Positions 44,564 through 49,487 of a stretch of 49,724 nucleotides of DNA are shown here, in pieces. The notes under the pieces were generated by a model that was not told where the DNA came from, searched no databases, and saw only the letters and a program-made list of their open reading frames with translations. The DNA is from an uncultured Chlorobiaceae bacterium (GTDB lineage Bacteria; Bacteroidota; Chlorobiia; Chlorobiales; Chlorobiaceae). Made by a program: the position numbers and the translations under genes. The stretch spans positions 1 to 49,724 of the forward strand of contig CAIPYV010000029.1 in the NCBI GenBank assembly GCA_903869365.1, given 5' to 3'. Within the stretch, counting starts at the first letter, position 1, and each line of letters opens with the position of its first letter.

Positions 44564-44669
44564 AACTTTCTTGCAACTCTTAATTTCAATGTTCTTTAAC
44601 AACAGAGAGCGAAGCTGTTCCACCCTCTCCATTATCAGAAGCCATAATGTAAAGAAAAAGCAGAATCGA

Positions 44670-46001
44670 TCACACAGCCGAGACGGATTCTTCAGTGTGG
44701 CCGTCAACTGACCTGGAAACTTCCGACACCCTTGAGGCAAGAACCTTATCAATCCTCTGACCGTCCAGATCTACTATCTCAAGCGTCCAGCTCTCCCAGG
44801 TCATAATGTCACCAGTTCTCGGCATACGTCCGAGCAGCCACATCATAAGACCGCTGAGCGTATGATAGAGTCCTTTATCCTCCTCCGGAACACATTTCAA
44901 CTCAAGCGTGTCTTTAAGTTCAGGAACAGGAATAAGCCCGTCAAGCAGCCAGGAGCCGTCCTGTCGCTGGATAGCCCATGAATCCTCAAGATTGCGAGGA
45001 ACAAACTCACCGGTAACCGCCTCAAGCATATCCTGCAAGGTAACAAGCCCCTGAATTTCACCATATTCATCAACCACAAAGACCATCTGAGTCCCGGAAG
45101 TTCTGAAATGGTCGAGCAGTTCCATGCCCGTAAGGGTTTCCGGCACATAGACACAGGGCTGCAATTGCGAGGTAAATTCAGTAAGGCCACCTTTCAAGGT
45201 CTTCGATAAAAGCTGTTTAGCATTGACAACGCCAAGCAGAAATTGAAGGCCGCCGTTACAGACCGGAAAGCGTGAATGTTCCGATTCTGTCACTCTGCTG
45301 ATATTTTCTTCAAGGGGTCGGGAAACATCAAGAAAGATAATGTCCGCTCTTGGAACCATCAGAGTGCCAAGTTGTCGGTCATCAAGACGGAAGACATTAC
45401 GAACCATCTCATGTTCATGCTGCTCGATAACCCCTGCTTCAGACCCCTCCTCCAGCATGGCATGAATCTCTTCCTCCGTCACACTCGGCATGGCCTGCGG
45501 GTGCTTCCCCATCAGTCTCAGAATAGCGTCTGTCGAGGCCGTGAGCAACCTCCCAAAGGGACGGGTTATCGTCGAAAGCGTACGCATCGGGCGAGCCACC
45601 AGACAGGCAATTCCTTCCGGATTAAACAGACCAAGGCGCTTTGGAACAAGTTCGCCGATAACAATAGTGATATAGGTAATCGAAAGCACAACAACCGCAG
45701 TAGAAACAATGTGACTTATTTCCCGATCCATACCGAAGGATTGAAGGATGCCAGCGAATGGACTGGCTAAAGCGCCTTCGCCGACAATACCGTTGAGAAT
45801 CCCAATCGACGTAATGCCAATCTGGATAGTCGAAAGAAAACTGGAGGGTTCCTGCCCAAGCTTCATAGCAATCGCCGCAGCTTTTTCTCCATCCTCTGCA
45901 AGTTTTGAAAGACGAGAGCGCTTTGCCGTTACCAGCGCTATTTCCGACATTGCAAAAAGGCCGTTAATTACTATCAGAAATAAAAGTAAAAGTATTTCCA
46001 T
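44670..46001 (-). CDS. CorC/HlyC-type membrane protein (DUF21 - CBS - CorC_HlyC)
   Basis: This 443-residue protein has the HlyC/CorC or CNNM-like layout. The N-terminal DUF21 domain has four membrane segments (LLLLFLIVINGLFAMSEIAL at the start, VSTAVVVLSITYITIVIGELVPKR further on). Two CBS domains occupy about residues 210-340 (VPRADIIFLDVSRPLEENI, VFVVDEYGEIQGLVTLQDML), and a C-terminal CorC_HlyC domain follows (LDGLIPVPELKDTL). Relatives are Mg2+/Co2+ efflux proteins; the older 'hemolysin' name is misleading. I start it at the ATG at 46001; the open frame reaches 46058. Confidence 0.94.
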   Translation of the reverse strand: MEILLLLFLIVINGLFAMSEIALVTAKRSRLSKLAEDGEKAAAIAMKLGQEPSSFLSTIQIGITSIGILNGIVGEGALASPFAGILQSFGMDREISHIVSTAVVVLSITYITIVIGELVPKRLGLFNPEGIACLVARPMRTLSTITRPFGRLLTASTDAILRLMGKHPQAMPSVTEEEIHAMLEEGSEAGVIEQHEHEMVRNVFRLDDRQLGTLMVPRADIIFLDVSRPLEENISRVTESEHSRFPVCNGGLQFLLGVVNAKQLLSKTLKGGLTEFTSQLQPCVYVPETLTGMELLDHFRTSGTQMVFVVDEYGEIQGLVTLQDMLEAVTGEFVPRNLEDSWAIQRQDGSWLLDGLIPVPELKDTLELKCVPEEDKGLYHTLSGLMMWLLGRMPRTGDIMTWESWTLEIVDLDGQRIDKVLASRVSEVSRSVDGHTEESVSAV

Positions 46002-46164
46002 ACATTCGGTTTTGAACCTTTCGGGAGTAGAAGCAACCATACATGACTGCCATAACAAATTCTATGGCAGTCCCCCTTAAAGTTCTGTTCTTACGCCATT
46101 CGTCATTTCACTATGCTACCAACTACACTTTTATTCTGCTAATTCCAAACAGTCAACAAACTGT

Positions 46165-46578
46165 TTACTTATGAGCAGAAAAAAAAGTTTTAACCTTCGC
46201 GACAAGCTGATTTTCGGTCAACCGCTCGCAAGCTTCAACTGCAACTTCTTTTTTGTGCAGTTCAGCAACCTTTTCGATCTCTTTGACAAGTTCAATTTTA
46301 GCCTCCCCAGGGCCGAAAACTGCAAGTTTCGCAGAATCTCCAAGCAACCCTGTCACCTTCTGATAAAAGGTATGATACTGGTGTTTTCGACGTTCTTCAT
46401 CAATATGCTCATTAGAGACACTCTGCGCGACATTGGTTCCACCTGATTTCCATCCACCAGATGGTTTATGGTGGCTTTCAGCATTGGATTCAACGCGCTG
46501 AACAACAACTTCGTCGCCTTCAATTGAAACCAGAATAGCTTCTTTGTGATCAATCCAGAGTCCTGTGTTTTTTTTCAT
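46165..46578 (-). CDS. Small baeRF / host-attachment-like protein
   Basis: This 137-residue protein resembles the short baeRF or 'host attachment' type proteins, relatives of the archaeo-eukaryotic release-factor core domain. The N-terminal strand NTGLWIDHKEAILVSIEGDE and the later LAVFGPGEAKIELVKEIEK match the general pattern of that fold. I start it at the ATG at 46578, 9 bp after a GGAGG site. It has no signal peptide or membrane segment. Its role is unknown; relatives have been linked to ribosome rescue or stress but not proven. It is a lone gene with about 100 bp of spacer on each side. Confidence 0.7.
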   Translation of the reverse strand: MKKNTGLWIDHKEAILVSIEGDEVVVQRVESNAESHHKPSGGWKSGGTNVAQSVSNEHIDEERRKHQYHTFYQKVTGLLGDSAKLAVFGPGEAKIELVKEIEKVAELHKKEVAVEACERLTENQLVAKVKTFFSAHK

Positions 46579-46714
46579 GGCGGCCAACCTCCGTCTGTGA
46601 TTATTTTCGTGAATAATTCAAAAGAGCTTCAAGAACAAACTCACATCTTTCTGTAAAGATAACCAATACTATCCTTTTCTTGTATTTTTTCGACCATCCC
46701 ATGATGGACAACTA

Positions 46715-48411
46715 TCAATACTGCTCGATATCCTGAAAATCTTTAAACAAGGCCAGGCTCTGTTCAGTCTCTGATTCTTTTTCCAGCTTTTCTGGAGAAC
46801 TCCCTGTTTCCAAATGCGGATCTGGGGTATCAAAAACCGCATCAAAAGCATCAGAAGATTGAGGTTCAGGCCAGGGTAGAGCTCCCTTCGAACGCAAGGC
46901 TTCGAGACCTTTTGAAGGAACTCCAGATGATCGCACATAGAGAGGAACCAACTGGCCGTCGATAAGCAGATTGTGATGTTCACGGTTCATTGCTGTTTTT
47001 TCAAGGCGATCGGCAAGAACACCACTGACCTTACCGCCGGCTTCAAGAGCACCACGCATGGCTGCCTGATCGACATGCCTTGATCCCACCACAGCAAGAC
47101 CACCGGTTTCCAACAACTTGATATCACCGCAGCCGTAAAGCACTGCAGGTGCACCTTCACGCAATCGCGTCTTGATACGCCGGGGATATGCTGCATCGGC
47201 ACGGCTGAGCACCCATATTGCACGTGTCTGCCAATGCTCAACAACCTGACTCAGTAAAAAACCACGCCCAAGCAGGCTTTGCATGCGTTTTTCATCAACA
47301 AGAAGAACGGCCCCTTCAGGGAGTTTTGGTACAATGACTGCGAGTGATCCATCAATGTTCCGAGCCTGTTGCGTACTGTTTGCCATGGTTTTCTGCTCTG
47401 GCCGATGGTCTGTCTTTGCAAGCACCATCTGGAATGGCAAATTCAGAGCTTCAGCAAGACGTTTCGCAACATCAGGAACGAGATCAGGGTGACGCAACGA
47501 CGGAACACAAGTTACCCATGTCGGTGCCGGTTCTGGATTCCATGTGTGCATCATAGCAACACAAGCTTTAACCAAAGCATCAGAATAAAAGTTGTCATGG
47601 TATTTTCCTTCTCTGACGAGTCCTCCCCATCCTGCATCACCCCAAATCGAAAGTGCCTTTCCGGTTTGAGCCTGGAAATCTACAGCAATTTTTCCTTTTA
47701 CCTGATATTGCGGCATACCACCAGCAGGACACTGAAGTCTGGGCTCAATGGGCAAATTAGTACGACGCAAAAAAGCGACCGCTTCCCGAACAAGAGCTTC
47801 ATCAACAGGTACCGACAACCCGGCAGACTCATGTTCAAGCGCATGAATAACCTCATCGACTTCCCGTCTGGAGGGAAAAGCATTATTGATGACCAGTCCG
47901 TTATCTCCGTCTCTTCTTTACCACTGAGTAAAATGCCATAAGCTGATTCCAGAGCGCGGCCTGCACGTCCAACCTGCTGATAGTAGGCGACAACCGATCC
48001 CGGCATCTGATAATGGATCACAAATGCCAGATCCGGCTTATCGAAACCCATTCCGAGTGCGGAAGTCGCTACAAGGGCTTTTACTTGATTATGAAGCAGC
48101 GCCTGCTCAAACTCTGGTCGACGGTCACCGGTTTCTCCCGTATAGGCTTCTACACGCAAACCCCGACTTTTCAGCCAACTGGCAACCATATTTGCATCAC
48201 GCACGGTAAGCGTATAGATGATCCCATGACCTTGAAGCGTGGCGAGCTGTTCTGCCAGCCATGCAAGACGCTCGGCTTGATCGGGTAATGTTATGGTTTG
48301 CAGGGTCAGAGAGGGACGATTCAAATTACCACGTAACACCTCCAGATGCGGCCCAAGCACTTCGGCGAGATCCTCCATGACCCGATTGTTTGCGGTTGCT
48401 GTCGTGAACTT
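46715..48411 (-). pseudogene. Decayed RecQ-helicase/PRTase + DprA-like gene relic
   Basis: This is the remains of two genes. From 48411 down to about 47892 the frame reads as the second half of a RecQ-type SF2 helicase: FTTATANNRVMEDLAEVLG, ALVATSALGMGFDKPDLAF, YYQQVGRAGRA. A one-base deletion at about 47892 shifts the frame; the second frame continues as [13 protein letters not shown], then a phosphoribosyltransferase-like tail ([20 protein letters not shown]) to VLLVD (47294). There it joins in frame to DprA-like sequence: [60 protein letters not shown]. Two stretches of the usual DprA core appear deleted, after 47069 and after 46946. The helicase N-terminal half with the Walker motifs is missing; a stop TAA (minus strand) directly precedes FTTATA. 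The DprA-like identity is recognised from motif memory. Confidence 0.82.
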
Positions 48412-48787
48412 TTTTTACACCAATAACGCTTTTTATCTACCCGAATGTAACCGGCCCGGACAGGAATACCCCAAAGGAAAATCGGACAAATTACACATTC
48501 AAGGCCACTTTTTGTCCAAAATTAAATTTTATAAGCTATTTGGCGAGCTTAGAAAATTTTCGGATAGCTTTAATGCTCAATTTTTTTGTAACTGATTCGC
48601 AAAAATTTTTAAAAAAATCAGAGCGGGAAATGGGCGTTCAGATTAGGGAGAGGACAGCTGCTTATTCCTACCATTGCCACCAGCGCCGAACTCGATGATA
48701 TTCTTTTCGTTCAACGATCCACACTGCATTACTGAACGCAGGAGTTAGACTGCTTCATTGCAAAATCAGGCTGTTTACAAATCTCAT
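48412..48787. other. Non-coding AT-rich junction region
   Basis: This stretch of about 375 bp between the helicase relic and the toxin-antitoxin operator has no convincing gene. It contains A/T runs and stop codons in all frames. A short plus-strand stretch near 48660-48740 reads like a decayed coding fragment (IPTIATSAELDDILF, then a stop), but I cannot assign it. No inverted-repeat ends of an insertion sequence are visible. Confidence 0.5.
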
Positions 48788-48822: not shown

Positions 48823-49254
48823 ATGAGCATACATGATATTGTACTTGACACCAATGTCGTTATTTCCGCCCTTCGTTCTTAGAAAGGGGCTTCATACAAG
48901 TTATTGTCACTGGTTGGAACACATCAGTTTGAAATCCACGACTCCGTGCCTCTTGTTCTTGAGTACGAAAATGTCATTCAACGCCACCGTGAAGAATTGG
49001 GATTATCAAAAGAAGATGCCGCAATTTTTATTGATTCACTCTGTTCGATAGCGCAGCATCATAAAATTTATTTTCTGTGGCGGCCGTTTTTGAGTGACCC
49101 AAATGATGAACGTGTGCTCGAATTAGCGGTGTCAGCCAAATGTGAATATATCATCACACACAACATAAGGGATTTCAGAGGTAGCGAAAAATTTGGTATG
49201 CATGCAATAACCCCGAAAGAGTTTTTGCAAATTATACATGAGGTGAAAGAATGA
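48823..49254 (+). pseudogene. PIN-domain toxin (VapC/COG1569-like) with premature stop
   Basis: PIN toxins are small RNases that cut tRNA or rRNA. The frame starts at 48823 with the hallmark IHDIVLDTNVVISALRS, whose Asp9 is a metal ligand, but codon 20 is TAG (48880-48882). The same frame is then open for 123 codons and continues as family-like sequence: KGASYKLLSLVGTHQFEIHD, YENVIQRHREELGLS, FLSDPNDERVLELAVSA and YIITHNIRDFRG with the later acidic residues. A single change (CAG or AAG to TAG) explains it. Reinitiation at TTG 48904 would lack the N-terminal Asp. Its stop overlaps the antitoxin start by four bases. Nonsense suppression cannot be excluded. Confidence 0.85.
49240..49245 (+). promoter_or_regulatory. 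Ribosome-binding site of the RHH antitoxin
   Basis: GAGGTG lies 5 bp before the ATG at 49251, inside the toxin frame. It lets the antitoxin be translated although toxin translation stops early. Confidence 0.6.
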
Positions 49255-49487
49255 GCACATTAAGTTTACGTTTACCAAAATCATTACACGAGCAACTTCG
49301 TGAAGTGGCACAAGAAGAAGGTATTTCCGTCAATCAGTTTATTATGCTTGCTGTTGCTGAAAAAGTTGCTGCTCGTTCAGCAATTGAATATTTAGAAAAG
49401 CGGGCAAAACGCGGCAGCCGCGAAAGATTCCTTGAAATATTAAACAACGTTCCTGATGTAGAACCAGAAGCGTTTGATAAACTGTAA
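49251..49487 (+). CDS. Ribbon-helix-helix antitoxin
   Basis: This 78-residue protein starts with an RHH fold: strand STLSLRLPKSLHEQLREVAQ, then GISVNQFIMLAVAEKV, as in Arc/MetJ and HicB-tail type antitoxins. The charged C-terminal part (EYLEKRAKRGSRERFLEIL) should wrap the toxin. It normally binds the PIN toxin and represses its own operon through the palindrome upstream. It overlaps the toxin frame by four bases (ATGA). The gene is intact, unlike the toxin. Confidence 0.9.
   Translation: MSTLSLRLPKSLHEQLREVAQEEGISVNQFIMLAVAEKVAARSAIEYLEKRAKRGSRERFLEILNNVPDVEPEAFDKL

Follow-up and report, generated by a model that had tools for sequence, protein, structure and literature searches.

Near one end of the window analysed here, a 49,724-nucleotide stretch of DNA from an uncultured Chlorobiaceae bacterium, a single open reading frame joins the phosphoribosyltransferase (PRTase) part of a RecQ-like protein to DprA-like sequence. 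Does this frame encode a new fused protein, or is it what remains of two separate genes? Our analysis indicates that the locus is very probably a recently ruined rqlH-rqlI (PsyrTA) toxin-antitoxin operon rather than a new protein. The frame, its surviving parts and the adjoining flank are as follows, with L112 denoting the intact orthologous locus of a sister species (G080).

46715..47818, minus strand: fused open frame of 367 codons, comprising an rqlH PRTase fragment and rqlI (DprA-like) fragments
47292..47818, minus strand: surviving rqlH PRTase part (L112 RqlH ~482-657), 86% nucleotide identity to L112 4771-5298
46715..47299, minus strand: surviving rqlI (DprA-like) parts, in three blocks (L112 RqlI ~67-143, ~174-217 and ~270-309) plus a divergent C-terminal tail, from the L112 alignment and Pfam PF02481
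47819..48405, minus strand: surviving rqlH helicase C-terminal block (L112 RqlH ~185-383), 86% nucleotide identity, Pfam Helicase_C
44662..46696, minus strand: collinear downstream flank, consisting of a CNNM/CBS/CorC gene and intergenic sequence, 88% identity to L112 and L117

The frame begins with a TTG codon, encodes 367 amino acids, spans 400 codons from stop to stop and ends at what is apparently the native rqlI stop. Its N-terminal half corresponds to residues 482-657 of RqlH/RecQ-PRTase with 82% protein identity, its last surviving residues being VLLVD, directly before the PRPP-loop motif, while its C-terminal half is RqlI/DprA and matches Pfam DNA_processg_A with an E-value of 5e-10 although truncated. 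The composition that a first-pass annotation had proposed for this frame is therefore real. The DprA-like part did not reach the competence DprA equivalog model TIGR00732 (18.6 bits against a curated cut-off of 191), and no Rfam match for a structured RNA was found in the region. Blocks that still align to L112 run from 48405 to 47808, 47819 to 47292, 47299 to 47069, 47087 to 46945 and 46953 to 46830. The remaining rqlI C-terminal tail and following sequence (46697-46829, about 134 bp) exceed their L112 counterpart by 66 bp and have no DNA match to it. The helicase C-terminal block lies mostly in another frame, where it yields a 226-amino-acid ORF (48378-47698) overlapping the fused frame; the helicase and PRTase parts are now in different frames because one base is missing at ~47893.

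At least two sister species share this site, and what stood there before can be read from them. L112 carries rqlH (691 amino acids) and rqlI (332 amino acids) 2 bases apart and adjoining the same CNNM/CorC gene, and L117 (G037) has the same site and arrangement with an intact rqlI and a damaged rqlH (two stops and a frameshift). The window locus is orthologous to both, as the downstream flank is collinear over about 2,036 bp with a single 1-bp gap, and the large deletions are therefore confined to the pair. A 140-amino-acid ORF without a Pfam match (46168-46587, minus strand) lies between the ruin and the CNNM gene and is likewise collinear with the relatives. The rqlH-rqlI pair behaves as a cassette at a site between an sdhB-like gene and the CNNM/CorC gene, since in species without it (e.g. 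L130, L134 and L136) some 170-280 bp lie between the 3' end of the sdhB-like gene and sequence of the CNNM side. The sdhB side falls outside the visible window, in which other DNA extends upstream of 48483 to the contig end, so that the downstream flank is shown for all three genomes and the upstream flank for two. Within that other DNA there is a second toxin-antitoxin module, in which a PIN_3-domain toxin gene (48823-49251, plus strand) looks broken, its codon 20 (about 48880) being an in-frame TAG, and adjoins an intact HicB/Arc-like antitoxin gene (49251-49487, plus strand).

We mapped the deletions base by base on L112, whose blocks are 84–90% identical to the window, with L117 as a second relative. 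Five large deletions and one 1-bp frameshift deletion were identified:

48405..48412, minus strand: deletion junction 1, ~769 bp lost against L112 and 748 against L117, removing the rqlH start and codons 1-184
47892..47893, minus strand: 1-bp deletion (frameshift) upstream of the fused frame, relative to all relatives
47806..47819, minus strand: deletion junction 2, at the 5' edge of the fused frame, 303 bp lost (a linker, RqlH ~385-486)
47292..47301, minus strand: deletion junction 3, which fuses both genes, 317 bp lost (RqlH 657 to the end, the intergenic bases and RqlI 1-~70), with the 8-bp GTTGATGA
47069..47087, minus strand: deletion junction 4, 90 bp lost (RqlI ~144-173, most of the SGGAKGID motif)
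46945..46953, minus strand: deletion junction 5, 168 bp lost (RqlI ~217-273, the RNKLIYAL...GGTWAGA core), with the 6-bp TGGTTC

Summed over the deletion intervals, 1,430 of the 3,077 bp of rqlH and rqlI (46%) are gone. The last four large deletions have equal sizes against L112 and L117, and none of the six lesions was found in the relatives. The three junctions that had been called in-frame deletions from the sequence alone are thus confirmed against L112 (317, 90 and 168 bp), while the count of three falls short, as the 303-bp, the ~750–770-bp and the 1-bp deletions are also present. A search of the remainder of the genome, which is rated 99.99% complete, for the missing segments recovered only an intact pair of ~54% identity, and relocation of the missing pieces within the genome was accordingly rejected.

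The lost segments include most of what is needed for function in the intact system. Both the helicase Walker A motif (TGWGKS, residue 45 in L112) and the DEAH box (residue 150), which together define a RecQ-type ATPase in RqlHI/PsyrTA, were removed with codons 1-184. The fusion cut falls within VLLVDDMVDSRWT, the PRPP loop, with the 317-bp deletion starting at VD|D, so that the intact loop (VDDxxDS) of RqlHI/PsyrTA is absent. E. coli RqlH altered at DIVD663 in this loop no longer inhibited growth or induced the SOS response (PMC4670107); as the equivalent loop is deleted here, we infer by homology that the toxin domain of the window copy is disarmed. Nor is there a separate, full DprA-like antitoxin: the N-terminal ~70 residues and core pieces of 30 and 56 codons are gone and the remainder is fused to rqlH. 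Antitoxin function has probably been lost as well, because E. coli RqlI variants without the N-terminal 84 residues and without the HTH gave no protection (PMC4670107). Relative to an intact orthologue the locus carries inactivating lesions, as is characteristic of a bacterial pseudogene, and its start has also been lost.

Short-repeat recombination had been suggested as the source of the junctions, and this holds for two of them. At the fusion junction, GTTGATGA (8 bp) is found on both sides in the consensus of six relatives, and the last junction has TGGTTC (6 bp) as microhomology; the remaining junctions show 0–3 bp of clear homology, so that the suggestion is weak there. Microhomology is underestimated when the ancestor is represented by only one of L112 and L117, since both have drifted by 10–15%. 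When deletions of the sizes of the fusion and last junctions were placed at random in L112 (20,000 draws), about 0.3–0.4% of the draws had runs of at least 6 bp and none had a run of 8; short-homology deletion is thus the likely origin of these two junctions. Long repeats flanking the deletions were not found beyond short imperfect pairs. We propose that the deletions arose by short-homology events, which may have been slippage or end joining, and that they would have been tolerated or favoured because a half-broken toxic unit would be a burden and because the genome still has a second, intact pair. On the same proposal, the youth of the damage would explain why the fused frame is still open, and the frame is probably untranslated.

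How young the damage is can be gauged from the surviving codons. In a codon model of about 506 of these, omega was 0.14 on the window branch compared to 0.19 in the background, omega=1 on the window branch was rejected by ~43 lnL units, and no stop was found in 505 codons. Relaxed selection on the terminal branch, the mark of a pseudogene of some age and of neutral decay, was therefore not found, whereas the damaged rqlH PRTase block of L117, which served as a control, gave a significantly raised omega of 2.0 (2dlnL 9.5). The window copy is accordingly a young ruin at most. A mixed model limits the neutral share of the branch to at most about 5%, or ~15 substitutions in 506 codons (bound at the 1.92 log-unit limit, with the absence of stops counted). 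Six lesions alongside at most ~15 neutral substitutions mean that the deletions are both recent and clustered. That is odd for plain decay, as had been remarked of the open frame at the outset, and the ratio of deletions to substitutions looks far higher than expected from passive decay. Most Salmonella pseudogenes have a single lesion, and few are shortened by more than 20% (PMC2916853). Recency and clustering fit either a compound event or selection for getting rid of a toxic unit already half broken.

That selection has kept the frame as a functional remnant, e.g. one that serves the other, intact RqlHI pair of the genome as a decoy or anti-addiction partner, is a reading we regard as quite improbable. 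It would account for a native-looking stop codon at the end of a frame that lacks internal stops, and for the four deletions that lie within this frame or at its edge, all of which preserve the downstream frame; the corresponding chance of 1/81 is a biased figure, since the frame was noticed for its length. The fused part alone likewise has an omega of 0.20 with omega=1 rejected (2dlnL 32). However, the helicase block outside the fused frame is equally constrained relative to its background (omega 0.075 versus 0.084), which argues that the constraint on the surviving codons mostly predates the damage. Moreover, both nucleotide-binding cores, the PRPP loop and the DprA Rossmann fold, are cut, and a fused copy occurs in none of the other family genomes (86 searched). 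The native rqlH start and the DNA just before it have been deleted, the available starts (TTG at 47818, which is an internal rqlH leucine codon, ATG at 47716 and later ones) are internal codons of the old gene, and by eye none of them is preceded by a convincing ribosome-binding site; translation of the predicted fusion protein is for these reasons unlikely. The openness of the frame thus mostly reflects recency rather than demonstrated selection on a fused product.

An assembly or sequencing artefact might also be suspected, as the contig ends 1.9-3 kb from the locus and the 1-bp deletion, taken by itself, might be an error, yet the junction repeats of 0-8 bp are far under any assembler word size, the junctions are clean with equal sizes against two relatives, and the missing segments did not turn up in the rest of this nearly complete genome; an artefact is, in our judgement, very improbable. 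Scarcely credible is a natural fusion family, that is, an intact and widespread protein of the same domain order and length. Both genes are in the same frame in L116, which makes fusion by stop loss conceivable, but a stop separates them there, and the 1158-codon 'open frame' of G068 proved to be a read-through count. Such a family, named beforehand as the observation that would count against gene collapse, was sought in 80 fetched loci and 86 family genomes and was not found, the window's being the only frame holding both parts among the 80 loci and 12 more from the family. Taking together a selected and translated fragment, domesticated as an anti-addiction or decoy protein, and several deletions arising from one complex template-switching event, we allow these a small chance. 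If true, the template-switching reading would mean that the operon was dismantled at one stroke, and the fragment reading that the protein was built by successive in-frame deletions.

Read as the ruin of a toxin-antitoxin operon, the locus offers a base-resolved case of the loss of a chromosomal toxin–antitoxin pair. A single deletion took both the catalytic loop of the toxin and the N-terminus of the antitoxin, so that after this step no active toxin was left unguarded and no antitoxin orphaned. At the same site, L117 took another route, in which the toxin was broken by stops and a frameshift and the antitoxin stayed intact. Across the relatives the loss of such pairs goes both ways, toxin or antitoxin first, given that L117 and L115 have a broken toxin frame (with the antitoxin of L115 also intact), while in L118, L119 and L122 rqlI is broken or mostly lost and the rqlH frame is intact including the PRPP loop. 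The last three appear to carry unguarded toxin genes, in three species, and contradict a rule by which the toxin is always lost first. L121 retains no more than fragments of the antitoxin, in which the first ~25 and last ~100 codons of rqlI (L121:493-859, G070) are joined by another internal deletion. The high ratio of large deletions to substitutions in the window copy makes selected loss of such pairs testable in the genus.

The first-pass annotation had described RecQ-PRTase and DprA-like genes as a recurrent adjacent pair of suspected conflict or defence function, and the comparative data bear this out. From a scan of 124 relatives (Chlorobiaceae, many Proteobacteria and others) 80 loci were kept, and 68 of these hold near-full-length copies of both genes; 14 of the 86 family genomes have a match, with the collapsed form only in the window genome. 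The L112 pair matches the PADLOC models PsyrT (E 6e-265) and PsyrA (E 7e-122), which stand for a toxin–antitoxin unit of the phage-defence type, and the second, divergent intact pair of the window genome (~54% identical; 715 and 458 amino acids; L125) lies at 755-4182 of contig C130, which is only 5.4 kb long. Both pairs match the PsyrT/PsyrA models over nearly their full length. Homology of the window copy with RqlHI/PsyrTA follows from the presence of both partners, with rqlH followed by rqlI, and from relatives that are intact at the site.

The closest described counterpart is RqlH-RqlI of extraintestinal pathogenic E. coli, in which a RecQ-like helicase with a C-terminal PRTase is likewise followed by a DprA-like protein and RqlI relieves the toxicity of RqlH, the part that is known being toxicity only (PMC4670107). 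The same PRPP-loop region reads DIVD663 in E. coli and DMVD, DMVG or DLVD in the intact relatives of the window copy. Unlike the E. coli pair, the window copy is without the helicase ATPase half, the PRPP loop, much of the DprA core and the native start, and its genes are fused. More distant are ShosTA and the DprA-PRTase system of P2-like phages, which also combine a DprA-like antitoxin with a PRTase; DprA homologues have been grouped together as antitoxins in shosTA, syrTA and rqlHI (PMC9122126). The ShosA model matched L112 RqlI more weakly (E 1e-26). To our knowledge, ShosTA and the P2-like phage systems have no RecQ helicase part. Among these systems, the window copy is best described as a ruin of PsyrTA, a known kind of system that is unusual here mainly for the number of deletions it has accumulated before ordinary mutations.
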